A stretch of 35,856 nucleotides of DNA from Clostridiales bacterium (GTDB lineage: Bacteria > Bacillota > Clostridia > Lachnospirales > Lachnospiraceae): positions 1 to 35,856 of the forward strand of contig JAJQCB010000085.1 of the NCBI GenBank assembly GCA_021203005.1, read 5' to 3'. Both the position numbers and the translations under genes were made by a program. Positions 3,275 to 29,703 of the stretch are shown here, one piece after another. The notes beneath the pieces are model-generated. The model was not told where the DNA came from. It worked only from the letters and a program-made list of their open reading frames with translations, and did no database searches. Each line of letters opens with the position of its first letter. Position 1 is the first letter of the stretch.

Positions 3275-4102
3275 ATGGAGCTGACAAAGGTAATGGTAAT
3301 GTATGACGTGCGGGGAATACAGAAATATATTTTTCGAACCGCAAAGATCAAAGATGCCATAGGTGCATCTGCGATCGTAGAGAATATCATTGAGGAGGCA
3401 TTATCCTATGCGGTAAAGAAGCTGAATCTGCAGGAACGCGCAGACCTGGAATGGTATACGGGGGATGGCGTATTGGAGTATCATGATGCAGATCTTGCGG
3501 TGCAGGTTCTGTATATTGGCGGCGGTAATGCTTATGTTATCTGTGAGTCGCGCGGGCTGTGTCTGGAGATCAACCGGATTATGGCCGGATATATTATTGA
3601 AAACACATATTCTCTCCAACTGGCAACGGCGATGGTTGCGGTGACCGGGAATTACGAGCAGGATTATGCGGAGCTGATGAATGAGATGAGCCGCGTGAAA
3701 GCGGAGATGACTTTATCAAAACCTCTGGGTGCGCTGCCGGTTATGGCTGTGGAAGTCAAAACCGGATATCCTGTCTCGGCTTCTCCGGAAACCGGGGGAT
3801 CAAAAGGCAGAACAGGAGATGTGAGTACGGAGTCCCTTTTGAAGCTGAAGAAGGAAAAGAATGTACGGAGAAATATTGACGGACAGATCAAGATACTGGA
3901 CAATTATACGACCCGGAAAGGAGTGGACAGCACGCTGGCTGTAGTACATATTGATGGAAACAATATGGGCCTGCGTATCAGAGACCTGATTTCCAAAAAA
4001 GAAACCTATGAGGAAGCGGTAAATGAGATGCGCCGTATTTCTTTTCATATAAATTTCTCATATAAAACCGTTTTCGAAAATATGTGTGCCCTTTTTTCAT
4101 GA
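3275..4102 (+). CDS. cas10: Cas10, N-terminal part (first palm domain), ends at a frameshift
   Basis: This is the N-terminal 275 residues of a type III Cas10. It begins directly with the first palm-like domain (MVMYDVRGIQKYIF, then KIKDAIGASAIVE), so the usual N-terminal HD nuclease domain is absent. Residues 224-231 (VVHIDGNN) begin the second palm domain. The ORF ends at TGA 4100-4102 right after the run CCCTTTTTTC. Removing one base from that run gives a continuous reading (MCAFFHEKAG...) into the next ORF, which carries the metal-binding motif. So the gene is split by a one-base frameshift, or is rescued by slippage at the run. AGGAGG precedes the ATG. It is the first gene of a tightly packed type III-D operon. 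Confidence 0.85.
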   Translation: MELTKVMVMYDVRGIQKYIFRTAKIKDAIGASAIVENIIEEALSYAVKKLNLQERADLEWYTGDGVLEYHDADLAVQVLYIGGGNAYVICESRGLCLEINRIMAGYIIENTYSLQLATAMVAVTGNYEQDYAELMNEMSRVKAEMTLSKPLGALPVMAVEVKTGYPVSASPETGGSKGRTGDVSTESLLKLKKEKNVRRNIDGQIKILDNYTTRKGVDSTLAVVHIDGNNMGLRIRDLISKKETYEEAVNEMRRISFHINFSYKTVFENMCALFS

Positions 4103-4874
4103 AAAGGCAGGCACGAGAAAAGAATATCAGAACAAGAAAACAGATGGTTTTGTTCTGAAAATTCTGGTGGCCGGCGACGACATTACCTATGTATGCAATG
4201 GGAAGATTGCGCTGGCGACGGTGGAATACTATTGCAGCGAGATCGCAAAGTATACAATGACCGGAGATACAGATGAAGAAAGTGTCCGGGATTACGGCTT
4301 CAGTGTATGCGCCGGGGTCGCTTACATCGGAAGCCATTTTCCGTTCCACGTGGGCTATGATGTGGCGGAAGCCTGCTGTGAAAATGCAAAGGAGAGCGCA
4401 AAGCTGCCGGAAAATAAGAGTGGGGAGCGGATTGGAAACTGGGTAGATTTCCAGATCTGTAAAAATATTCAGGCGAGAAATCTGGAAACCATGCGGGAGA
4501 GGGAGTATCTGACAGACCATGGGGAACAGCTCCTTGCCAGGCCGTATTTTGTCCGCGTCGATTCCGATGAAAACTGGCCGGTAAAAAGGACAGATTTCCG
4601 GGCTTTTGATATCCTGAAACGCAATATTAGATATTTTCAGAATGCGAAAAATATCCCCCGTTCTTTTGCCAAAAATTTAAGGAACGTATATCCGCAGGGA
4701 AAGGATAAGGCAGATATGTTTATGGCTTTCCTGGAATCCAGAAATTGGGAAATGCCGGATAAAACGGATGAACTGTTTTTGCCGGGGAATGAAGCTGTAA
4801 TAGCAAAATATTATGATGCATTAGAGCTTCTGGATTATTATATTGATCTTGACGAGATCAGAGGAGGAGAATGA
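4086..4874 (+). CDS. cas10: Cas10, C-terminal part (cyclase palm with AGDD, plus C-terminal region)
   Basis: The C-terminal 260 or so residues of Cas10 in the +1 frame relative to the previous ORF. Residues 26-36 (ILVAGDDITYV) are the GGDD-type motif of the cyclase palm. The first glycine is replaced by alanine, but both aspartates that bind metal are kept, so synthesis of cyclic oligoadenylate remains plausible. The C-terminal region (NIRYFQNAKNIPRSF..., LDYYIDL) fits the helical D4-like end of Cas10. The nominal start (GTG 4086) has no ribosome site, so this part is only made if the frameshift is bypassed. Its stop overlaps the next gene by 4 bases. The downstream CARF-HEPN gene implies the system once depended on this signalling activity. 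Confidence 0.85.
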   Translation: MPFFHEKAGTRKEYQNKKTDGFVLKILVAGDDITYVCNGKIALATVEYYCSEIAKYTMTGDTDEESVRDYGFSVCAGVAYIGSHFPFHVGYDVAEACCENAKESAKLPENKSGERIGNWVDFQICKNIQARNLETMREREYLTDHGEQLLARPYFVRVDSDENWPVKRTDFRAFDILKRNIRYFQNAKNIPRSFAKNLRNVYPQGKDKADMFMAFLESRNWEMPDKTDELFLPGNEAVIAKYYDALELLDYYIDLDEIRGGE

Positions 4875-12040: not shown

Positions 12041-12170
12041 GAGTTGACCGGGCATAAAAATCTCTTTCCTTTCCGGGTAAATGGAGATATAATAATAGAC
12101 GGGCGGGAGACAAAGACATGCAAAAATGAGACCGTCAGCCCCTGGTTTCTGCGGGTTACCAGAGTGTACT
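12041..12170 (+). promoter_or_regulatory. CRISPR leader with a promoter-like -10 box
   Basis: This 130-base AT/purine-rich stretch between cas6 and the first repeat holds a consensus TATAAT at 12088-12093, with a weak TTTCCT 17 bases upstream, and starts about 80 bases before the first repeat. A small hairpin (CTGGT/ACCAG) lies at 12141-12162. The repeats end in ATTGACAC, like the 8-base 5' tag ATTGAAA(C/G) of type III crRNAs, so transcription towards the right fits this leader. Confidence 0.5.
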
Positions 12171-12539
12171 TTAGAAATGAGATAAGCCAGTTGAGGGCAT
12201 TGACACTTTCAAAACCCCTTAATATTTTATTCAGTAGAAATGAGAGAAGCCCGTTCAGGGCATTGACACCAACCAAATTCGCCAATATGATACCGAGCTC
12301 CTTTTTTGTAGAAATGAGAGAAGCCCGTTGAGGGCATTGACACCTCTTTGTGTCATATATTTCCTCCTGTTTACTAAGGTAGAAATGAGAGAAACCCGCT
12401 GAGGGCATTGACACCTCAAGGAAATTACTTCCTTGGTTACTGTTGTTTATCGTAGAAATGAGAGAAGCCCGTTCAGGGCATTGACACAACACAGATGCCT
12501 ATGATCACAACAATAACAATTGCGTAGAAATGAGAGAAG
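12171..12539 (+). CRISPR. CRISPR array, five full 36-base repeats, five spacers, and one truncated repeat
   Basis: Repeats start at 12171, 12234, 12308, 12379 and 12452 and are 36 bases long. The common form is GTAGAAATGAGAGAAGCCCG, then TTSAGGGCATTGACAC, with a short GCCC/GGGC stem. The first repeat carries three changes, one of which breaks the stem, and the fourth carries two. A sixth copy (12524-12539) stops after GTAGAAATGAGAGAAG. Spacers are 27, 38, 35, 37 and 36 bases. The 3' end ATTGACAC resembles the type III 8-base handle, so crRNAs come from the + strand. No cas1 or cas2 lies nearby. None of the five spacers was seen elsewhere in this window by eye. Confidence 0.95.
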
Positions 12540-12545
12540 AATCTT

Positions 12546-15335: not shown

Positions 15336-15385
15336 GTATAATCAGTAATTTGAGATGGGATGGTGTTGCCGGGAGGGCAGGCAGG

Positions 15386-16915
15386 ATGAGCAATATAAGA
15401 TTTGAAATCGGAGAACTGACAGAGATCGAAGAGATAAAAGAGTTTCATACTGAAGCGGGCGCATCCATGCGTTACCGATTGACAATAAAACTTCTGACAG
15501 TTTCTCCGGAATCCGACTTTAGCGTTGAGGATATTTGCGATTTCAGGCGGAAAGTATATCTTTATGCGCCTTTTTTTGATGCATGCGGGCTTCCGTATAT
15601 TGCAGACGAAGCGGAAGCGGTAGTAAAACCTGATCTTCCGTTGTACGATACAGAGGAAAGATGGGTAGAGTTGAAAGTACGGTCTGTCATACGGGGAAGA
15701 ATTCTGTCAGAAACAGATATAGAAAATGTAAAAGATGAAAAACTATATATCGGAAATGTGAGTTTTGATTACTGGAAGAATTTAAAGAGCGATGTAGAGG
15801 TAATAGCGAAATGGAACAGATCTATGCCGAAATCCTGTTATTCTGACCTAGATCGGTGCGTTCAATGTGCGCTTGCCACAGGCAATCATCTTGCATTTGC
15901 AAAATATTTTACGGAAAAGGCAAAGCCGAGAAAAGAAATTGCCGCTGTTGTCTTAGAAAAATATCTTGATAGATATAACAAAAAAGATGAATGGAACCAG
16001 TGGAAAATTCTTCCGACCGCTATTTGGCGGAGTTTAGATTTCGAATATACGGAAAATAATCTGAAATGGAATGCCTACGATTATGCTCAAATGAGTACGT
16101 GGATTAAGAGGGTCGGTTCGGTTCCTGACAAGGATATCCTGGTTCAGCTGGCGCTCAGTATGGGGCTGGATGGGGACGAGACAGATATGCTTCTTATGGC
16201 ATCTGGGTATGATCGACTCTATCTGCTGGATGCGGCGGATCTGTTTGCGAAAATCGCGCTTGATAAATACGGGAATGATACGGTTACATCTGATTATGAC
16301 AAAAGAAAAGAGGTCTTCGAACAGCAGAAAAAGTTCATGGCTTCACAGACAGATTTGGAGTTAAAATACATTTTAAATGAATTAGAACCGGAACAGCGGT
16401 CGGATTTTGAAAACTGCTTTTTATCTGCCTTAGAAGAAAAGGAATGTGCCGGTGAGTTTAAAGCGGAAAGAGATATCATTATAGAAATTTTAAATGATTT
16501 AAAAGATATGCGGAAAACAGGTAATTTGGACGCCGGGAAATGGTACGTTACGGAAAAGAAAGATAAAAAAGGCCATATAAAATATATTGACATAACGGAA
16601 GTTAAAAAGGATGATACGCATAGGTATTGGGGGATACAAAAACAATCAGACAGTTCTGAAATAATTGTATGGAGATATGAGTACGTACCAATAGCAGGAA
16701 ATAAACAGGAGTCTTCACAGACAGATTCGGATTTATCCGAATCATCGTGTTTGAATTTTATCCGGGATTATGGCGACAGAAAAATCAAATACATTTTAAA
16801 TGAATTAGAACCGGAACAGCGGTCGGATTTTGAAAACTGCTTTTTATCTGCCTTAGAAGAAAAGGAATGTGCCGGTGAGTTTAGGATGAAAAAAACGCCG
16901 TTAAAGAAATTTTAA
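15386..16915 (+). CDS. unrecognised protein with HTH-like segment and first half of an internal duplication; ends at a frameshift
   Basis: 510 residues from ATG 15386 (GGGAGGG upstream; the ORF track start at 15350 has none). Residues 1-150 have no recognisable family. Around residues 230-300 the segment VPDKDILVQLALSMGLDGDETDMLLMASGYDRLY resembles the lambda-repressor/XRE-like repeat found in Lachnospiraceae kinase-associated proteins. The segment YILNELEPEQRSDFENCF then occurs twice, about 140 residues apart, because 97 bases (16364-16460 and 16787-16883) are identical. The second copy loses its frame beside a run of seven A and ends as RMKKTPLKKF. The continuation is found in the next ORF, so this gene and the following one were probably one. 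It sits directly after the CARF-HEPN gene. Confidence 0.6.
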   Translation: MSNIRFEIGELTEIEEIKEFHTEAGASMRYRLTIKLLTVSPESDFSVEDICDFRRKVYLYAPFFDACGLPYIADEAEAVVKPDLPLYDTEERWVELKVRSVIRGRILSETDIENVKDEKLYIGNVSFDYWKNLKSDVEVIAKWNRSMPKSCYSDLDRCVQCALATGNHLAFAKYFTEKAKPRKEIAAVVLEKYLDRYNKKDEWNQWKILPTAIWRSLDFEYTENNLKWNAYDYAQMSTWIKRVGSVPDKDILVQLALSMGLDGDETDMLLMASGYDRLYLLDAADLFAKIALDKYGNDTVTSDYDKRKEVFEQQKKFMASQTDLELKYILNELEPEQRSDFENCFLSALEEKECAGEFKAERDIIIEILNDLKDMRKTGNLDAGKWYVTEKKDKKGHIKYIDITEVKKDDTHRYWGIQKQSDSSEIIVWRYEYVPIAGNKQESSQTDSDLSESSCLNFIRDYGDRKIKYILNELEPEQRSDFENCFLSALEEKECAGEFRMKKTPLKKF

Positions 16916-17095
16916 TAGATATGAAAAAGGACGTTGATAAATGGGATATTACGGAAAATAAAAAGGATGGCAATGTAAAATATATTAACATGAACGAAAA
17001 GAATACGCATACGTATTGGAGGATACAAAAGCAATCAGACAGTTCTGAAATAGTTGTATGGAGATATGAGGACGTACCAATAGCGAGATATAAAA
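16340..17095 (+). repeat. tandem duplication of a roughly 370-base coding segment
   Basis: Unit 1 (about 16340-16706) and unit 2 (about 16712-17095) both read from ...CTTCACAGACAGATT through the identical 97-base block to the ACAATCAGACAGTTCTGAAAT and TGGAGATATGAG blocks. The distance between copies is 423 bases at the left end and 389 at the right, so unit 2 has a net loss of 34 bases, not a multiple of three. That loss is the cause of the reading-frame break between the two ORFs. Confidence 0.85.
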
Positions 17096-18174
17096 CGAAG
17101 CTAAGCCGGAATATAGAAGGTGATATACAGAAGTTTATAAATGAGTTTGAAAAATCTTACGGAAAAAAGAATATCCAGGAGACAGAATATCTTACAAATC
17201 TGATGGGCAAGTTGTACAGGGATAAAGGAGTTACGGTAACAGATAATGGCAGTATATCCATATCGCTTCCGGGTGAAAGCCATGTAGAACCGAAAAAATT
17301 AATTGAGCAGAGGCGTTATGGCTACTTAAAAAAGATGGATAATTTCCTGAAAGACCGGGAGGCATATGAAAAATATTTACCGGATGACCCGAACTCCTGT
17401 GAATGGAAGTGGGAGTGGTCAGGCAACGTGAGCGATTTGGTATCGCATATTGATAATTGCGGCCGCTTGCTGAGTAAGGATGGAAGAAAATCGGGATACA
17501 GAACGGGGAATGGACTGAATCAGGCTACCATAATCTGGAACAGGAGGAGCAAACTATTTGACCCCTATGATTTGCCAAATGCCAGTGCGCGAAGAAGCAC
17601 ATTGAGAAATATGCTGTTTGGCAGGGGAGGTAAGAATAAGTTTGATGTGATAACCCAGATAGATAAGGCGGATTTTTTTAAGTTTCTCGTGATCACGGGG
17701 CATGAGGATGACATCGGAATTTATATGAAAAAACTTGGTTTTTGGAAGGAAGACTTGTATTCCTTGTATTCGCCAAATTTTGAGTTACACATTGATCCGG
17801 AAGATTTTCAAATAGATCCGGAAGGTCTTAAAATGGAATCCTGCGATTATATTTGTGACAGGAAAGATTTGCTGTTGCTGTATGCCCTGGTATACAGGGA
17901 TGAACTGCTTGATTCTTACTTTTTTTCCGGCAAAACCCGTGAGGAAAGAAATAAATTAAAGCAAAAGTTTCCGTTCCTTGAAGTCGTAATGGAGATTTCA
18001 AATACGATAGTGCGCAGTTATTACCTGCAGCGAAAAAATCCGGCTGCTTCATTCCATGGACCATGGATCCTTCGCGGGGCAGGTATTGACGGCATCGTTT
18101 ATTCAGACGACGTCATGTTTTTTGAAGAAAAAGGGCGGAGAGTCAGGAGTGCTGAAAATGAGCGGGAACGATAG
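16921..18174 (+). CDS. continuation of the duplicated gene after the frameshift; unrecognised C-terminal half
   Basis: 417 residues. The N-terminus (KWDITENKKDGNVKYI..., QKQSDSSEIVVWRYEDVPIA) is the second copy of residues 380-450 of the previous ORF. The same frame is open further upstream (DEKNAVKEILID) with no start codon, and the ATG at 16921 has no ribosome site, so this ORF is most likely the rest of the preceding gene. The unique part has a weak HTH-like stretch (DFFKFLVITGHEDDIGIYMKKLGF) followed by RKDLLLLYALVYRDELLDSYFF, similar in layout to the HTH-like region of the first ORF. Its function is unknown. Its last 17 bases overlap the kinase gene, so it is in the same operon. Confidence 0.55.
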   Translation: MKKDVDKWDITENKKDGNVKYINMNEKNTHTYWRIQKQSDSSEIVVWRYEDVPIARYKTKLSRNIEGDIQKFINEFEKSYGKKNIQETEYLTNLMGKLYRDKGVTVTDNGSISISLPGESHVEPKKLIEQRRYGYLKKMDNFLKDREAYEKYLPDDPNSCEWKWEWSGNVSDLVSHIDNCGRLLSKDGRKSGYRTGNGLNQATIIWNRRSKLFDPYDLPNASARRSTLRNMLFGRGGKNKFDVITQIDKADFFKFLVITGHEDDIGIYMKKLGFWKEDLYSLYSPNFELHIDPEDFQIDPEGLKMESCDYICDRKDLLLLYALVYRDELLDSYFFSGKTREERNKLKQKFPFLEVVMEISNTIVRSYYLQRKNPAASFHGPWILRGAGIDGIVYSDDVMFFEEKGRRVRSAENERER

Positions 18175-21640: not shown

Positions 21641-21693
21641 CAGAAGCTATGAAAAAGCGGAACTGCTGTCACAGCTCTGAAAGGGGAATGGAT

Positions 21694-22398
21694 ATGAAGT
21701 ACAGAAAATATATAGGTTACATAATACCCGGGTTTACGACATATGAGGTGAAGACGGATTATTTCATTATAGAGTCCGGCATTTTAAATAAGAAGTACTC
21801 CTATGTCCCGATACACCAGTTGGCGGATCAGGTTGAACTGAAGCAGACTTTCCTCGGGCGATGGATGGGTGATTTCGGCAGCATTCACTTTACAACTCAT
21901 AATGGAGAAGAGGTGACTTTTTCCCAGATCAAAAAAGCCGGGTATCTGATGCAGGTTCTCCCCGGATTGATCAAAAGTGAAAACATGAGATACGTGGATG
22001 CACTGAACAAGGCCCGCTATGATATGTACAAGGGAAAACCGGCCAGAAAAAATAAACGATATGCAAAATGTTTTGCAGAAAAAAACCGGTTTTATTTTCC
22101 GGGGTTTGAGTCCTACTTTCTGGATCAGGATCAGCTGATCGTCCGGCAGGGGATTTTAAGGAAACAGGAAATGAATATTTACCTGGAAAATTTTGACAGC
22201 ATGTTTCACACAGAACGCTCTTTCGCAGAGCGGGTTCTGGGGTTCGGAACGATATCTTTGAAATGCGGCTCGGAGAAAGTAATCCTGCGTCATATTTCAT
22301 CCGCAGAAGCCATTGCCTGGATTTTAACAAAAACCATACCTCAGGCCAAAATCATTTATTACGCCTATCAGGCTTTTCAGAAGAAAGCAGGGGTGTAG
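21694..22398 (+). CDS. tandem bacterial PH-like domain protein
   Basis: A 234-residue soluble protein built of two similar halves. Residues 1-95 (YFIIESGILNKKYSYVPIHQLADQVELKQTFLGRWMGDFGSIHF) and residues 130-225 (QLIVRQGILRKQEMNIYLENFDSMFHTERSFAERVLGFGTISL) both follow the bPH_2/YdbS pattern of a beta-rich domain with the 'G-I-L' strand and 'LG-x-GSI' turn, but there are no membrane segments. The ligand is unknown. The ATG at 21694 is chosen for its spacing to AAGGGG; 21649 and 21688 are upstream alternatives. It leads a tight group with clpP. The 5' end of this gene also occurs, degraded, at position 61-100. Confidence 0.68.
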   Translation: MKYRKYIGYIIPGFTTYEVKTDYFIIESGILNKKYSYVPIHQLADQVELKQTFLGRWMGDFGSIHFTTHNGEEVTFSQIKKAGYLMQVLPGLIKSENMRYVDALNKARYDMYKGKPARKNKRYAKCFAEKNRFYFPGFESYFLDQDQLIVRQGILRKQEMNIYLENFDSMFHTERSFAERVLGFGTISLKCGSEKVILRHISSAEAIAWILTKTIPQAKIIYYAYQAFQKKAGV

Positions 22399-22444
22399 AG
22401 ATATGGAGAGTCATGTTTTTTAAGCCGAAAGGAGATGCAGAAAG

Positions 22445-23062
22445 ATGAATGTACAGGTAAAAAGCAGCAATGGGATCACTTTGGTTCCGGTGGAGACGCG
22501 CCTGATGGCAGAACGCAATATTTTTATTGAGGGCGAGATCAATTCGGAAAGCGCCTGTGAGTTCGTAAAAAAGGTTATGTACTTAAACAGCGAGGATGCG
22601 GAAGAACCGATTCATGTCCTGATCAATTCAAACGGCGGCGAGATCAATGCCGGGATGCTGATGTACGATGTGATCCAGGCCAGTAAAGCGCCGATCCGGA
22701 TGTATTGTATTGGGCACGCCTACAGCATGGCGGCAGTGCTCTTTGCCAGCGGCAATTACGGGCGCTACATGCTGCCGCACGGAGAGCTGATGCTCCATGA
22801 GCCGCTGCTCGGAAACCGGGTGGGAGGGAACTCTTCCTCCATCAAATCGATTTCCGACAGCTTGCAGGAGTCAAAGCGGGTCATGAACCGGATCCTGGCA
22901 AAGCACACGGGGAAAACAGAAAAAGCGGTGGAAAAGGCGACAAATTATGACCATTACTTCAGCCCGGAGGAAAGTATCGCGTTCGGGCTGTGTGATGAGA
23001 TTGTAGGGTTTGACAGAATGATGGAGGATGAAAACGGTTATGGACAAAATGATACTTGGTGA
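22445..23062 (+). CDS. ClpP-family serine protease paralogue
   Basis: A 205-residue ClpP-like peptidase. NIFIEGEINSESA, then HVLINSNGGEINAGMLMYDVIQ, the nucleophile region AYSMAAVLFASG (Ser near residue 97) and the histidine segment MLPHGELMLHEPL (His near 122) are all present. The third catalytic residue of housekeeping ClpP lies in DRDxxMsaxEA; here the region reads NYDHYFSPEESIAFGLCDEI, so an aspartate is available but displaced. A hydrophobic-patch loop for Clp ATPases cannot be judged by eye. The gene overlaps the next gene, a VirD4-like ATPase, by 23 bases, which suggests a functional pair in place of ClpX/ClpC. AAAGGAGA is the ribosome site. Confidence 0.9.
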   Translation: MNVQVKSSNGITLVPVETRLMAERNIFIEGEINSESACEFVKKVMYLNSEDAEEPIHVLINSNGGEINAGMLMYDVIQASKAPIRMYCIGHAYSMAAVLFASGNYGRYMLPHGELMLHEPLLGNRVGGNSSSIKSISDSLQESKRVMNRILAKHTGKTEKAVEKATNYDHYFSPEESIAFGLCDEIVGFDRMMEDENGYGQNDTW

Positions 23063-24299
23063 GAAAGCAGCTTTTAGTACGGATTGTAATGAAACGGGAT
23101 TGAATAATAATGTTTTTGTATGCGGGGGAAGCGGATGCGGGAAGACGTTGTCAATTACCGAACCCCGTCTTCTGGAGACAAAACAGTCCAGCCTGATCGT
23201 GACTGTGACGAAGAGAAGGATCGTACATAAGTATAAGCCGGTGTTTGAGCAGCGGGGTTATAAAGTGGAGGATCTGAATTATGTCAATCCCCTGGAGAGC
23301 AGCGTCGCCTACGACCCGCTGCAATATGTGGCAAGCTATTCCGATATCCGGTTCCTGAGTGAATCTATTGTTATGGCGAACCCGCGCAAGGAGAAGTCCA
23401 CGGGAGCGGATCCCTATTGGGACGAGGCGGCCATTTCACTCTGTTGTGCGGAAATTGCCTACGTTCTCATGACGGATGAAAACGCTACGCTTGCTGATGT
23501 CCTTGCGTTTCATGACAGGATTTCTTTCTGGGACGAGAACGGGCAGATCGCCACTTCTGTTGACAAAAAATTTGATCGTCTGGAGGACAGGGATCCGACC
23601 TGCTATGCGGTATCCTGCTGGAAGTCTTTCCACCAGCTCCCGATCAGGACCGCCGGCTGCGTATTTGGGGCCTTAAATACGACGATCGATACCATCTTCA
23701 GCCCGGAACTGCGCGAAATGATAGCCACGAAGAGACAAGTGGATTTTGAAAAGTTAGCCACGGAAAAAACCGTCCTGTTTGTATCAACGTCTGCTGTGAA
23801 TCCGGCACTCAACTGTTTCATCAATATGTTCTATGCGCAGGCGTTCAAAAGCCTGTTTGAATACGCGGAAAGCCGGCCGGCCGGCTGGCTGCCGATCCCG
23901 GTACATGTGCTTTGCGACGATTTTGCTACAGGCAGCAGGATACTGAATTTCCCGGAATACATCTCTATTTTCCGCGAAAAGCGGATTTCGGTCACGCTGC
24001 TTGTCCAGTCTGAGTCCCAGCTGGAATCGATGTACGGGCCGAACGATGCGACGACGATCATAAACAACTGTGACACCTACCTCTATATGGGCGGGATGGA
24101 TTTAAAGACCGGGAAGTCGATCAGTGAAAGGCTGAACGTGCCTCTGGATGAGGTCCTTTACATGCCGATCGGCCGGGAATACATATTCCGCAGAGGGCAG
24201 AAGCCGGTTGCTACCAGGCGCTATGATATTATGCGGAATGAACTTTATCTGAAAATCACGGAAGAATACGAGAGTAAGATCCGCAAATCGGAACGGTAA
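23040..24299 (+). CDS. VirD4/TraG-like ATPase without membrane segments
   Basis: A 419-residue P-loop ATPase of the VirD4/TraG (T4CP) superfamily. Walker A is VCGGSGCGKT near residues 26-35, followed by the SLIVTVTKRRIVHKY segment. Walker B is HVLCDDFATG near 300, and sensor-like RISVTLLVQSESQLESMYG and NNCDTYLYMGGMD follow, as in this family. The N-terminal transmembrane region of true coupling proteins is missing and no conjugation genes are nearby. The start at 23040 overlaps the clpP reading frame; ATG 23028 directly abuts GGAGG and is too close. Translational overlap with clpP hints that the two act together, for example as unfoldase or regulator and peptidase. That role is inference. 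Confidence 0.85.
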   Translation: MDKMILGEKAAFSTDCNETGLNNNVFVCGGSGCGKTLSITEPRLLETKQSSLIVTVTKRRIVHKYKPVFEQRGYKVEDLNYVNPLESSVAYDPLQYVASYSDIRFLSESIVMANPRKEKSTGADPYWDEAAISLCCAEIAYVLMTDENATLADVLAFHDRISFWDENGQIATSVDKKFDRLEDRDPTCYAVSCWKSFHQLPIRTAGCVFGALNTTIDTIFSPELREMIATKRQVDFEKLATEKTVLFVSTSAVNPALNCFINMFYAQAFKSLFEYAESRPAGWLPIPVHVLCDDFATGSRILNFPEYISIFREKRISVTLLVQSESQLESMYGPNDATTIINNCDTYLYMGGMDLKTGKSISERLNVPLDEVLYMPIGREYIFRRGQKPVATRRYDIMRNELYLKITEEYESKIRKSER

Positions 24300-24538: not shown

Positions 24539-25608
24539 AGAAAATGCTGAAATGGAAAGGGAAATACCTGGAAGGAAGATGCGGGGAGGATGCAGCTTAT
24601 AGATTTAATCTGGGTGTGCTTACGATCTCCGGCAGGGGACGGCTGTATGACTATGAATCGAATTACGTCGATGCCGACAGGAAGTTTGATGTATATGAGA
24701 TCATTGCAGATGCCCAGGAAGAGGTGAACGCCAGACAACGGCGGGATCAATGCCGGGATGCTGATGGATGTGATCCGGGCCAGAAAAGCGCCGATCCGGA
24801 TGTTTTGCATCACGGCGCAGTCCCCTGGGCTGATTACAGAAACGATATCCGGCGGGTCTTGATCGAAAAAGGGATAACCAGCATCGGGAACAACATGTTT
24901 GCAGATTGCGTCAACCTTGAATCCGTGGCAATCCCGGAGGGCGTCACGGTGATCGGATACAATGCTTTCCGAAACTGCCGGAACCTGGTAAGAGTATCGT
25001 TTCCGGGCAGCCTTTTCCGTATCCGGTTTCAGGCATTTGAGGGATGCCATAGCCTGACCCGGGCGCTTATTTTCCCAAAGGTTGGGCTGGGCGAAGATGT
25101 TTTTAAAGACTGCCCCAATCTGAAGTTGTATGTCCGGGAGGGCTCTCCTGCCATGAAATATGCTGTCAGGAACAACATAAATTATGTAAATATGGGTATC
25201 GGCACCAGGCAGGGGAAATCCTCAGCCGGCTGTGATGCGGCGAAACAGAGGAAATGCTCAGCTGACAGCGGTGCGGTCTCAGATCAGGGATTCGAGGAAG
25301 AGTTTTTAAAAGTAGTGAAACAGTATCAGCAGGAGTTGTCTGACGCCAGGCAGTTTGTCGGGATTCTGAAAGACTGTTTCCCGGAGGCGGAAAACCAGAA
25401 GCACGTATTTTTGATGGGGGAATTGTCCCGGCTCGGAATCGTGCAGGCAATCCGTGATGCAGAGGAACTTAATGCCATGCTGCTGCAGCGGTATACGAAA
25501 CGCCTCGTTTCTGATTTTGCTGCAGACGAAAGCTGGGCTGCATGGGCGGTATCGCTCTGGTGTAAATCCTACGGGGTAAATGTTTTGGATAAGCCCTGTT
25601 CGATATAA
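24535..25608 (+). CDS. BspA-type leucine-rich repeat protein with embedded clpP-derived stretch
   Basis: A 357-residue cytosolic protein. It starts with the usual BspA lead-in (WKGKYLEGRCGEDAAYRFNLGVLTISGRGRLYDYES) and continues at PWADYRNDIRRVLIEKGITSIGNNMFADC with about four LRR_5 repeats to residue 200. The rest is helical (FEEEFLKVVKQYQQELSDARQF) ending in a C-terminal domain (ESWAAWAVSLWCKSYGV). Between the lead-in and the first repeat lies an atypical stretch of about 45 residues. Its DNA (24736-24806) is nearly the same as codons 63-88 of the clpP gene 2 kb upstream, but in a different frame. ATG 24535 is coupled to the small gene upstream; ATG 24544 is the alternative. Confidence 0.8.
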   Translation: MKKMLKWKGKYLEGRCGEDAAYRFNLGVLTISGRGRLYDYESNYVDADRKFDVYEIIADAQEEVNARQRRDQCRDADGCDPGQKSADPDVLHHGAVPWADYRNDIRRVLIEKGITSIGNNMFADCVNLESVAIPEGVTVIGYNAFRNCRNLVRVSFPGSLFRIRFQAFEGCHSLTRALIFPKVGLGEDVFKDCPNLKLYVREGSPAMKYAVRNNINYVNMGIGTRQGKSSAGCDAAKQRKCSADSGAVSDQGFEEEFLKVVKQYQQELSDARQFVGILKDCFPEAENQKHVFLMGELSRLGIVQAIRDAEELNAMLLQRYTKRLVSDFAADESWAAWAVSLWCKSYGVNVLDKPCSI

Positions 25609-25666
25609 GGTGTTGATTATGAGTAAAAAATGTAAGCTGAAACTTACAGAATGGGAGGACAAACAG

Positions 25667-26986
25667 ATGGAAGGTTCATTGTTGAAGACAGGGACAACGG
25701 TTGTTGCGGAGAATGGTGCCCGTTACACAGTCCGCAGGTTCCTTGGTTCAGGCGGCCAGGGAGAGGTTTACGATGTGGAAAACGGCAGCGGGCAGCCGTT
25801 TGCCCTGAAGTACTATTTTAAACATTCCGCAACAGACACACAAAAGAGTATTCTGAAAAACCTGATCGCGAAGGGGAGCCCGGATCCCTCTTTCCTCTGG
25901 CCGCTGACTCTGGTATGTTCAGGCCGGGAAAATGACGGCGGATTCGGGTACATCATGGCGCTGCGTCCCAAACAGTACAAGAGCATCGCGGATTTAATGA
26001 AGCGCAGGGTGGACCCGGGCTTTTATGCCATCTGCCGTGCCGCGTTCAATCTCACAAAAGGCTACAGGAAACTCCATGAAAGCGGATACTCATACCGGGA
26101 TATCTCCTGGGGGAACGTTTTTTTCACAACGGAGGGGGACATCCTGATCTGTGACAATGACAATATTTCGGTGGATGGAAAGGATGACAGCGGAGTGCTC
26201 GGGACTCCGGGGTTCATGGCGCCGGAACTGGTGGTGGGGAAGGCGAAACCCACCCCCTCCCGGAACACTGATCTGCATTCGCTTGCCGTATTGCTCTTCT
26301 GCATTTTTTTTATCAGCCATCCATTAAACGGCCAGTTGGAGGCGGAGATCAAATGCATGGACATTTATGCCATGGAGCGTCTCTACGGCGCAGATCCGGT
26401 GTTCATATTTGACCCGGAGGATAAGCGGAACCGGCCGGTGAAAGGCGTGCATGATAATGCGCTGATCTACTGGCAGATATATCCGCAGGAGCTGAAAGAT
26501 CTGTTTACACAGGCCTTTACAGTGGGATTGAAGTCGCCAAACAGGCGCGTCACGGAAAAGCAATGGCTGGACGCGATCGCGAACCTGATGAGCGGGATTA
26601 TGATGTGCCCGAAATGTGGCGCCGAGGTTTTTTACGACAGGCAAAAAGAGCTACATGGAGAAGCGCATTCCTGCTGGAACTGTTCGAATACGCTGGCTGT
26701 CCCTCATAAGCTTGTGGCGGGGAAACATAAAGTATTGCTGACTGCTGAAACCAAACTGAAATCACATTCCATTCATGGCGATTTTGATATGGATAAAACA
26801 GTGGCTGCCGTAGTCAGAAATCCGAAAAACCCTCTGTTGTGGGGCATCCGGAATGGTGAGAACGGTGTAAACTGGACATATGTAAAGAAAGATGGGAGCC
26901 AGATCCCTGTCCCGACAGGCCGCGCTGCCGGCATTGTACCCGGCGTGAAGATAAATTTTGGGGACTGTATTGGTGAAATTATCTGA
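25667..26986 (+). CDS. Ser/Thr protein kinase with C-terminal zinc ribbon, TerY-P triad type
   Basis: A 439-residue protein. Kinase motifs: FLGSGGQGEVYDV (ATP loop) near residues 24-36, FALKYY lysine, YSYRDISWGNVFF as catalytic loop (YRD in place of HRD), ICDNDN replacing DFG, and GTPGFMAPEL. After the kinase, MCPKCGAEVFYDRQ... CWNCSN is a four-cysteine zinc ribbon (about residues 310-345). The last 90 residues are a beta-rich module (KVLLTAETKLKSHSI..., GRAAGIVPGVKINFG) that may be FHA-like. Kinase, vWA and PP2C genes in this order form the TerY-P triad described for Ter-linked stress systems. ATG 25667 has GGGAGGA 7 bases upstream; upstream ATGs at 25620 and 25580 lack a better site. Confidence 0.87.
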   Translation: MEGSLLKTGTTVVAENGARYTVRRFLGSGGQGEVYDVENGSGQPFALKYYFKHSATDTQKSILKNLIAKGSPDPSFLWPLTLVCSGRENDGGFGYIMALRPKQYKSIADLMKRRVDPGFYAICRAAFNLTKGYRKLHESGYSYRDISWGNVFFTTEGDILICDNDNISVDGKDDSGVLGTPGFMAPELVVGKAKPTPSRNTDLHSLAVLLFCIFFISHPLNGQLEAEIKCMDIYAMERLYGADPVFIFDPEDKRNRPVKGVHDNALIYWQIYPQELKDLFTQAFTVGLKSPNRRVTEKQWLDAIANLMSGIMMCPKCGAEVFYDRQKELHGEAHSCWNCSNTLAVPHKLVAGKHKVLLTAETKLKSHSIHGDFDMDKTVAAVVRNPKNPLLWGIRNGENGVNWTYVKKDGSQIPVPTGRAAGIVPGVKINFGDCIGEII

Positions 26987-27043
26987 AACAGAAGAATTAT
27001 GACAAGTAAATTATAAACCTGAAAATCAAAGGAGGAAATGATT

Positions 27044-27781
27044 ATGGCACTGAAATTGAAACGACCCGGCGGAGAATTAGCGACGAGACCACTCCATTTC
27101 TTTTGGATTGTAGACTGTTCCGGCAGTATGTTCGGCGAGAAAATAGGCGCGGTAAACCATGCGATCCAATCCGTGATTCCGGATATGCGGGAGGCAGCGG
27201 AGAGCAACCCCAATGCGCAGCTTTTGGTCCGCACCCTGAGATTTGCGACCGGTGCCTCCTGGATTACGCCCGAACCCGTCCCGATCGAAGATTTTGCCTG
27301 GGACGACCTTGACGCGTCAGGACGGCAGCTGACCAATATGGGCCAGGCCATTGAGATGGTGGCTTCTCAATTAAGAATCCCACCGATGCCTGAGAGGGCG
27401 CTCCCGCCCGTATTGGTCTTGCTCTCGGACGGTCAGCCTACGGATATGGATAATTACAAAAAGAGCCTCAACGATCTGCTTCACCTTCCCTGGGGGAAGA
27501 AGGCTGTCAAAATAGCCATATCCATCGGCAGGGACGCCGACGATACTGTTTTGCAAGATTTTACCGGGAATCCGGAGCTGGTACTGGAAGCTAATAATGC
27601 GTCCATGCTCACCGAAGCCATAAGGTGGGCGTCAACGGCTGTTTCCGCTGTACCCGCTCCTCCATCCAGCATACTGTCTGAGGAGGATAGCAATGGCTCA
27701 CACAGCCCGGCCATGCGGGTACTCAATATCAACAACATTCCGACACCCGACGACGTTATTGATCAGGAGGATGTCTGGTGA
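27044..27781 (+). CDS. vWA domain protein, TerY-like
   Basis: A 245-residue von Willebrand A protein. The metal-dependent adhesion site is complete: FFWIVDCSGSM near residues 18-28 (DxSxS), the threonine in RQLTNMGQAIEM near 90, and VLLSDGQPTD near 125 (final D). There is no signal peptide or membrane segment, so it is cytosolic, as for TerY proteins that join kinase and phosphatase in the TerY-P triad. The tail is flexible (APPSSILSEEDSNG..., PTPDDVIDQED) and acidic, and could be the target of phosphorylation. The ribosome site GGAGGAAA fits ATG 27044 better than ATG 27038. It lies between the kinase and PP2C genes. Confidence 0.9.
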   Translation: MALKLKRPGGELATRPLHFFWIVDCSGSMFGEKIGAVNHAIQSVIPDMREAAESNPNAQLLVRTLRFATGASWITPEPVPIEDFAWDDLDASGRQLTNMGQAIEMVASQLRIPPMPERALPPVLVLLSDGQPTDMDNYKKSLNDLLHLPWGKKAVKIAISIGRDADDTVLQDFTGNPELVLEANNASMLTEAIRWASTAVSAVPAPPSSILSEEDSNGSHSPAMRVLNINNIPTPDDVIDQEDVW

Positions 27782-27799
27782 AAGTGAGGTGGATGGTAA

Positions 27800-28693
27800 A
27801 TGATGTCACGGATGATTTATGGCGAAAGCGTGAGGGGAGCCTCACATATCAGATCTGGTAAACCCTGTGAAGACTCTTTCAAATTCATGGAGATTTCGGG
27901 TCAAGTTTCTCTGCTCGCAGTGGCTGACGGGCATGGCAGCGATGCCTGCCCGTACAGCCGAGACGGGGCGGAAATAGCTGTTGAAGCGTTCTGTTCTGTC
28001 ATGGAACGTCTCGTTGAAAAAAATTTTACGGAAAACTCGGATAAGAATTTCTTCCTGTCTTATCTGAACCGGGATGGGAGTCTGGGTGTGGCCCGCCTTG
28101 TGGAACAGGAATGGAAACAGCGTGTCTGGGAAAGTTACCTTACTAATCATGGTGGGCAGGGGGAATCGGACACCACGGACAGGAACTCTGTTTACCGCTT
28201 ATATGGTTCCACCCTGCTCGGACTTTTGCTTATGGAGGACTATCTCTTCGCATTCCAGATCGGCGACGGTGACATTCTGCCTGTCGATGCGGACCGGGTG
28301 CAGCCGCTGACAGAGGCTGACAAGATCCTTGGTACGGAGACGCACTCGATTTCCTCTGAAAATGCCTGGAAGAACGCGGTCACATCGGTACGCCGTCAGG
28401 AGGACCATCCCCGGCTTTACCTGCTTTCAACGGACGGTTTTTGCAACAGCTACCCCACAACAGAGAGTTTTAAGGAAACCTGCCGGGATTATTATAACGT
28501 CTTACGGGAGTACGGTTTCCAGGCAGTAACAGATAATCTGAAAGACTGGTTGACGGAGACGAGCGATCTCGGATCCGGGGATGATATTACTCTGCTGCTG
28601 GCATATACAGGTGACGAAGAATGCGCAGAAACTGCCGACAGCAGGGCAGAAGAGAGAAGAGATGATATATCCGATGGAGGAGAGCAGGAATGA
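27800..28693 (+). CDS. PP2C-family protein phosphatase
   Basis: A 297-residue PPM/PP2C phosphatase. The family motifs are visible in order: GKPCEDSF near residue 20, LLAVADGHGSD at 37-47 (metal-binding aspartate and glycine), FAFQIGDGDIL near 150, LYLLSTDGFCNSY near 208, and GSGDDITLLLAY near 256. It has no membrane segment. In this setting it should reverse phosphorylation by the kinase encoded at 25667. Its last codons overlap the start of the transglutaminase-like gene as ATGA, so these genes form one operon. GAGGTGGATGG precedes the two adjacent ATG codons at 27800 and 27803. Confidence 0.92.
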   Translation: MMSRMIYGESVRGASHIRSGKPCEDSFKFMEISGQVSLLAVADGHGSDACPYSRDGAEIAVEAFCSVMERLVEKNFTENSDKNFFLSYLNRDGSLGVARLVEQEWKQRVWESYLTNHGGQGESDTTDRNSVYRLYGSTLLGLLLMEDYLFAFQIGDGDILPVDADRVQPLTEADKILGTETHSISSENAWKNAVTSVRRQEDHPRLYLLSTDGFCNSYPTTESFKETCRDYYNVLREYGFQAVTDNLKDWLTETSDLGSGDDITLLLAYTGDEECAETADSRAEERRDDISDGGEQE

Positions 28694-29703
28694 TCACGGA
28701 CAGGTATTATTACAGCCGGCTTTCACGGCAGGAGAGACAAATCTATAAAGCCCTGTACCAGGGTGTGGTAAATTCAGATGCCGGTATTCCGCTGTATAAA
28801 ACAACTTCGGAGACAATCCCGGATCCGGAGGTGATCCGGAGGGTGTTCCGGGCTGTGGCAAGAGATAATCCGCATTTGTTTTATGTCAACCAGACACTGC
28901 TGGAAACCAGGCAGATCGGGAATAAAATGACGTTGGTCCCGCAGTATTTTTACTCGAAAGATGAGATTGCAGCCTGCAATGCCAAAATAGAAGCGGAAGT
29001 CAATCGGATGATAACGGATCTCGGACTGAACCGTCTGCCGCAGCCGGAGGCCGTACATAAAGTCCATGATTATTTTTGCCGGAACATCGCTTATGACACA
29101 GAAGCGGCGGAGAAAGGGATTACCCCCGGCACCATCCATGCATACGCCGCTCCCGGCGTGTTTTTAGAAAAGCGGGCAGTCTGCGAAGGCATTTCCAAAG
29201 CCCTGAAGCTTCTCCTGAATGCGGCGGACATAAAATGCATCCTGGTGGAAGGGAACAGCCTGCCCGACAATGCCCCGCATGCATGGAACATCATCAAAGT
29301 AAATAATGTTCCCTGCCATATGGACCTGACCTGGGATATGACAGGAGGTATGGAGGGGATCACCAGTTATGATTACTACTGCCTGTCGGAAGCGGATATA
29401 TCCAGAGACCACACGGATTTTTCCGGGGTTCCCGTATGCAATTCCGATAGTGAAAACTATTTTCTGAAAAGAGGGCTGGAATTTTATACGCCGGACCAGT
29501 TGAGAACGTATATCAGGCACGGTCTGAAAAAGAAACAAACAGACTTTTATTTCCGATACAGGGGAACGGGGGGAATTGCGCCGGTTATGCAGGAAGAGAT
29601 CGAATTCCTGCAGTGGCAGTTCCCCATGCATGGGATGGAGGGCAGGATCGTCAGCACCATGAGGGAGACGCAGGGTACGGGGCGGATCGTACTTCTTTCC
29701 TGA
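28690..29703 (+). CDS. transglutaminase-like cysteine protease family protein
   Basis: A 337-residue cytosolic protein with a transglutaminase-like core. The cysteine is in KRAVCEGISKALKLLL (about residue 165), the histidine in PHAWNIIKVNN (about 198), and the aspartate in CHMDLTWDMT (about 213), in the canonical C-H-D order. The N-terminal 110 residues are helical and basic, and the final 80 residues contain a short helical tail domain. Members hydrolyse or crosslink peptides; the substrate here is unknown. The four-base overlap with the PP2C gene implies co-translation, adding a protease-like effector to the kinase/vWA/phosphatase triad. The known family supports an enzyme; the link to signalling is inferred from gene order. 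Confidence 0.85.
   Translation: MITDRYYYSRLSRQERQIYKALYQGVVNSDAGIPLYKTTSETIPDPEVIRRVFRAVARDNPHLFYVNQTLLETRQIGNKMTLVPQYFYSKDEIAACNAKIEAEVNRMITDLGLNRLPQPEAVHKVHDYFCRNIAYDTEAAEKGITPGTIHAYAAPGVFLEKRAVCEGISKALKLLLNAADIKCILVEGNSLPDNAPHAWNIIKVNNVPCHMDLTWDMTGGMEGITSYDYYCLSEADISRDHTDFSGVPVCNSDSENYFLKRGLEFYTPDQLRTYIRHGLKKKQTDFYFRYRGTGGIAPVMQEEIEFLQWQFPMHGMEGRIVSTMRETQGTGRIVLLS

Follow-up and report, generated by a model that had tools for sequence, protein, structure and literature searches.

To our knowledge, the known ATP-dependent proteases all use AAA+ motors. Where the peptidase is ClpP, a hydrophobic pocket on its surface takes the IGF loops of the Clp ATPases (PMC8182300), and a Glu/Arg pair adjoining the catalytic aspartate forms the salt bridge that joins the two rings of active ClpP (PMC9823225). 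Unfolding is needed also for the substrates of type IV secretion systems (T4SS), the home of the VirD4/TraG coupling ATPases, and the unfoldase responsible has been stated to be unclear (PMC5826034). The locus described here sets members of these two protein classes side by side. It lies in a contig of a Clostridiales bacterium of the Lachnospiraceae (assembly GCA_021203005.1, contig JAJQCB010000085.1), the whole analysed stretch of which, 35,856 nucleotides long, is called here the window. The features of the pair and its immediate surroundings are as follows.

21649..22398, plus strand: bacterial PH-domain protein (bPH_2, 7e-17), 46 bases upstream of the pair
22430..22434, plus strand: AGGAG, candidate Shine-Dalgarno sequence of clpP, from sequence reading
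22445..23062, plus strand: clpP, ClpP peptidase of 205 amino acids, with catalytic Ser94, His118 and Asp169, a handle helix and a remodelled docking pocket
23023..23027, plus strand: GGAGG, candidate Shine-Dalgarno sequence of the ATPase gene, within clpP, from sequence reading
23040..23062, plus strand: overlap of the clpP and ATPase frames, 23 bases with the ATG at 23040, or 35 bases if the in-frame ATG at 23028 is used
23040..24299, plus strand: ATPase gene, soluble VirD4/TraG-type protein of 419 amino acids without a transmembrane (TM) segment, with Walker A GGSGCGKT (Lys35), Walker B DDFA (Asp293-Asp294) and Arg312

The overlap of 23 bases that had been reported in an earlier note on this DNA is exact for the ATG at 23040, and comparison with homologues places the N-terminus of the ATPase at about the same residue as their starts. 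Both proteins belong to known superfamilies. The peptidase matches Pfam CLP_protease (PF00574) at 4e-48, with 164 bits against a cut-off of 20.2, and its AlphaFold model (pLDDT 90.5) shows a complete ClpP fold with handle helix, the top structural matches of which are all ClpP. The ATPase matches Pfam T4SS-DNA_transf (PF02534) at 1e-29 and scores 249.4 bits against the NCBIfam model of CD1115-family VirD4-like proteins (NF045973), 0.6 bit short of its cut-off of 250. The same note had called this protein the only ATPase next to ClpP, which is true of motor ATPases, but two protein kinases also lie within 5 kb. At this locus the PH-domain gene and the pair perhaps form one transcript; in our neighbour survey of loci, the PH-domain gene was absent from the recurrent neighbours of the pair and is hence not conserved with it.

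The main result of our analysis is that the association of these two genes is a conserved trait of a whole clade of ATPases. When the ClpP and the ATPase of the window were each searched separately in 299 genomes of the family, the best 19 ATPase matches outside the window's own genome, spread over 17 genomes, were all found beside a same-strand ClpP, mostly with ClpP first and in three cases with the ATPase first (in one pair, that of G277, ClpP is interrupted by the contig end). Conversely, the 14 ClpPs nearest to that of the window, at 41-68% identity, all adjoin such an ATPase. A profile (A1) built from 23 of the paired ATPases was then used for searches at order, class and phylum level, where it returned more pairs, and in GTDB genomes, where it returned 80 named loci. 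The range of hosts takes in the Lachnospiraceae, Oscillospiraceae, Christensenellaceae, Selenomonadales and Solobacterium, with Lachnoanaerobaculum, Frisingicoccus caecimuris, Blautia, Ruminococcus, Selenomonas ruminantium, Schwartzia and Anaerovibrio among the named hosts. The module is widespread in gut and rumen Firmicutes.

A survey of VirD4-like genes without membrane segments for ClpP neighbours had been proposed in the earlier note, and it was carried out here. The count took in all distinct full-length members collected, which were assigned to a TM-less (109) or a conjugative (63) class from profile score and coverage, independently of ClpP. A same-strand ClpP was found within 1.2 kb of 100 of the 109 TM-less ATPases and of none of the 63 conjugative VirD4 relatives (Fisher p of about 3e-39, as given by the script for a 110/62 split, from which row L060, with a membrane segment and a Walker B of DE, was reassigned by hand), related loci being non-independent in these counts and the sample being biased towards paired members, since the profile was made from paired ATPases and the 80 named loci are their nearest relatives. 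Five of the remaining TM-less members are cut off by contig ends and four (L193, L198, L208 and L219) have no ClpP nearby. The spacing of the genes is tight: among 84 pairs in the ClpP-ATPase order, 29 overlap and 48 are separated by 0-30 bases (together 77 of 84). ClpP is moreover the sole constant neighbour of the ATPase, the other surrounding genes varying from locus to locus. We conclude that the two genes form a conserved module in which pairing is clade-specific and nearly obligatory, and that a linkage so far beyond chance strongly supports a functional one. The two proteins are co-inherited, and the distances among ClpPs and among ATPases correlate with r = 0.84, a value that linkage can explain without contact between the products.

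A few loci in the survey deserve separate mention. The single candidate for a natural ClpP-ATPase fusion (L154) proved to be two overlapping frames. A search of the ClpP-less loci for a replacement peptidase gave nothing in L198, L208 or L193; in L219 (11509-13953) a gene for a clostripain-like peptidase, recognised by eye, lies downstream of the TM-less ATPase, an arrangement that could be due to chance.

The ATPases that take part in this module have diverged from their conjugative relatives in more than their neighbours. In a quick tree with long branches, the paired ATPases make up one side of a branch against the conjugative VirD4s with a support of 100. Of the 63 conjugative relatives, 50 have a hydrophobic segment ahead of the matched region, as against none of the 109 TM-less ATPases, so that the absence of a membrane anchor, first remarked upon in the window, extends to the group. 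The Walker A lysine (Lys35) is kept in 110 of 110 sequences, whereas Walker B reads DD (DDFA) in all 109 TM-less ATPases and DE in the conjugative relatives, a replacement of Glu by Asp that, judging from sequence, may make hydrolysis slower or alter it. In the ATPase alignment, C-terminal columns 370-408 looked specific to the pairs but were discarded as an artefact of trimmed conjugative rows. The AlphaFold model of the ATPase (pLDDT 91) consists of a RecA-like fold and an all-alpha domain, as in VirD4/TraG coupling ATPases, and Foldseek places it closest to Cag-beta (TM 0.70) and TrwB (about 0.6), with weaker matches to the HerA ATPases of defence systems.

Since the ATPase comes from a family of conjugative elements and phages possess ClpP-like proteases (the window ClpP matches the head maturation model at 2.5e-23), the pair might be taken for a relic, left behind by a conjugative element or a prophage, whose two genes share no function. 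Its open frames are nevertheless intact, its active sites conserved and its order kept in many species, and neither conjugation nor capsid genes recur near it: no relaxase or T4SS gene appeared among the recurrent neighbours in our neighbour survey, and the four relaxase matches of the window genome all lie on contigs other than that of the window. We therefore regard a relic as exceedingly improbable.

More consideration is due to the idea of a nucleoprotein or defence module, in which the ATPase would translocate DNA, like its counterparts in conjugation and HerA systems, and ClpP would cleave proteins that the ATPase encounters on DNA or displaces from it, or would be activated when the ATPase senses foreign DNA. 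The structural affinity of the ATPase to T4SS coupling proteins, and more weakly to the HerA of defence complexes, speaks for it, as does the position of several loci near type III CRISPR, WYL, STAND, TerD or kinase/PP2C genes. Yet PADLOC models match neither the ClpP nor the ATPase of the window, many pairs sit amid ordinary chromosomal genes, and the neighbour survey returned no recurrent nuclease or relaxase partner. Viral contigs also contribute little, with only three relatives of the ATPase in 2.9 million, two of them beside a ClpP, and the predicted isoelectric point, tried on the TM-less and conjugative sets as a marker of DNA versus protein handling, was uninformative and does not discriminate. 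Movement of DNA by the ATPase could still form part of its activity, but as an account of the pair this reading seems to us rather unlikely.

The peptidase, for its part, retains its catalytic machinery for the most part. The Ser-His-Asp triad is invariant in 22 paired ClpPs, and in a larger set of 92 it is kept at Ser in 92, at His in 90 and at Asp in 84. The aligned His and/or Asp are missing in eight of the 92, and both in L145 and L146, where the ATPase is retained and ClpP may be an inactive subunit or use an altered chemistry. That these two ClpPs remain paired without catalytic residues, and that Walker B reads DD throughout, would suit a regulatory or scaffolding pair in which the task of ClpP is to restrain the ATPase or to assemble it, its activity as a peptidase being secondary; the conservation of the triad across nearly all other members makes such an arrangement very unlikely as a general explanation.

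It is around the catalytic residues that the paired ClpPs depart from the housekeeping type. As a reference we used a comparison set of 18 ClpPs, from which one paired ClpP and an odd third ClpP of the window genome were set aside to leave 16 housekeeping ClpPs. In the tree these form, with E. coli ClpP, a clade of their own (support 99) apart from the paired ClpPs. The positions compared, given in E. coli ClpP numbering verified against the triad, are those that we take to make up the docking pocket. Position 82 of the pocket is aromatic in all 16 housekeeping ClpPs and in 0 of 92 paired ones, Tyr62 occurs in 16 of 16 against 24 of 92, and position 192 is basic in 15 of the housekeeping set against four of the 92. 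Beside the catalytic Asp, Arg170 is universal in the housekeeping ClpPs (16/16) and survives in a single paired one (1/92), an aromatic residue or His taking its place in 70. The context of the catalytic Asp in the window (NYDHYF) had been noted as atypical; the Asp itself is intact, and the oddity resides in its neighbours, which read aromatic-Asp-His/Asn and not Arg-Asp-Asn/His. Given the loss of Arg170 across the paired ClpPs, this peculiarity is better seen as a trait of the family, at a site that matters for function.

These changes bear directly on the reading that ranks, along with the DNA- or defence-linked role, as a main rival of a dedicated protease, namely that the paired ClpP is an accessory isoform that serves the genome's ClpX or ClpC, or mixes with the housekeeping ClpP, while the ATPase is separate but co-regulated. 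Its fold is clearly that of ClpP, the window genome has a clpX gene next to that of the housekeeping ClpP as well as three further ClpB/ClpC-type matches, and examples are on record of ClpP isoforms whose pockets are altered and which mix with another ClpP (PMC9823225). The family-wide loss of the pocket aromatic and of the ring-ring Arg, however, leaves a remodelled pocket that argues against use by ClpX or ClpC, and the exclusive pairing with the ATPase over many bacterial families also speaks against an isoform of this kind, which we consider quite improbable.

On balance, and with some caution, we favour a dedicated, two-component, ATP-dependent and self-compartmentalised protease with a motor of the HerA/FtsK class, which seems to us slightly the better side of the question. 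The soluble VirD4-like ATPase would assemble as a hexameric ring and would recognise, unfold and thread protein substrates into the ClpP barrel, thus filling the role that ClpX, ClpC or HslU has elsewhere. Presumably, such a system arose when a CD1115-type coupling ATPase was joined to a ClpP paralogue, the motor losing its membrane anchor and the peptidase gaining a remade docking surface. A dedicated protease is the simplest reading, and it accounts for the exclusive pairing and the lost anchor, for the preservation of the active sites of peptidase and ATPase and for the altered docking surface; against it we count the lack of an IGF-like docking tripeptide conserved across the alignment of paired ATPases, the DD of Walker B, the eight ClpPs without the aligned His and/or Asp and the four ClpP-less ATPases. 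The earlier suggestion of a protease with an unconventional motor is supported in part, strongly as regards functional linkage, through the pairing, the co-inheritance and the changed pocket and ATPase site, whereas contact, unfolding and proteolysis are what we infer from these.

The surroundings of the pair offer some candidates for additional components. No third gene is constant, the commonest same-strand neighbour being a YbjN/CesT-like gene upstream in about 10 of 111 loci. This small protein, encoded directly upstream of clpP (e.g. L159:8649-9401, L162:8718-9401, L168:8687-9406 and L068:8429-9004), has a fold of the type III secretion chaperone type, with weak Pfam matches only, and is a candidate adaptor; substrate choice may accordingly vary by genome with local partners of this sort. 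WYL, STAND, TerD, vWA and YbjN/CesT-like proteins recur at subsets of pairs, and may be adaptors or mere neighbours. An upstream run of a STAND-type ATPase, a protein of about 900 amino acids whose C-terminal domain is of the WYL type, and two unknown proteins recurs in L142:1-7994, L159:3-8527, L161:5864-8533, L071 and L072, and the WYL protein is found also at pairs near type III CRISPR.

In the window, the pair comes after a type III CRISPR locus that includes a CARF-HEPN protein, among kinase, PP2C, vWA, BspA-type LRR and transglutaminase genes, and type III CRISPR genes lie near three other pairs. The Cas10-like protein of the window locus (3275-4874) spans two overlapping frames (3275-4102 and 4086-4874); that of a relative (L072:3635-5245) occupies one, and the split may be a frameshift or an assembly error. 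A short CRISPR array (12166-12540), with six repeats of about 36 bases at a spacing of 63-74, has Cas6 on one side and a UPF0160 (MYG1-like) gene on the other. Two adjacent unknown proteins (15350-18174) share a duplicated stretch, LKYILNELEPEQRSDFENCFLSALEEKECAGEF occurring twice in the first and KYI..IQKQSDSSEI.VWRYE being common to both, which suggests a recent tandem duplication. Downstream of the pair (25580-29703), protein kinase, vWA, PP2C and transglutaminase genes follow in a row that resembles kinase/vWA/phosphatase signalling modules.

Literature searches, which took in no bioRxiv preprints and only a minority of subscription papers, yielded no prior description of a module of ClpP and a VirD4-like ATPase, and its pairing as a conserved unit appears to be new. 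The module would be categorically new only if the motor proves to unfold protein. Whether it stands for a new class of compartmental protease, in which a motor from the VirD4/HerA-FtsK lineage, and not an AAA+ one, unfolds proteins and feeds ClpP through non-IGF docking, is a proposition that we hold evenly balanced. If true, the pairing of ClpP with a VirD4-class motor would be an exception to the AAA+ rule and show that this class of motor can unfold proteins; a soluble relative that brings its own peptidase as a read-out would also make the unfoldase question of T4SS coupling ATPases directly testable. ADEP-type compounds, which bind the canonical ClpP pocket, would be expected to have little effect on the paired ClpP.

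Several known systems can be compared with the pair. It shares with the ClpP-like head-maturation proteases of phages a ClpP-type peptidase away from the housekeeping locus, but the match to these is weaker (2.5e-23, below cut-off), there are no capsid genes and the partner here is an ATPase. With HerA-based defence complexes such as DUF4297-HerA it has in common an ATPase of the HerA/FtsK class with an enzymatic partner, and a weak structural match; that partner is here a ClpP peptidase, the structural match is far weaker than to coupling proteins and PADLOC gives no match. The CD1115-family VirD4-like coupling proteins (NF045973), TrwB and Cag-beta share with the ATPase a sequence family (249 bits) as well as the fold, Walker A and Arg312, whereas the paired ATPase has no anchor and no recurring conjugation genes, carries DD and not DE in Walker B, falls on a separate branch and has ClpP as its partner. 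Finally, as in ClpXP, ClpCP and HslUV, the gene for a ClpP barrel, with handle helix and triad present, adjoins that for a ring-type P-loop ATPase; unlike those systems, the pair has no conserved IGF-like tripeptide, its docking pocket and ring-ring Arg are changed, and its motor is of the T4SS-DNA_transf/VirD4 type instead of an AAA+ Clp.
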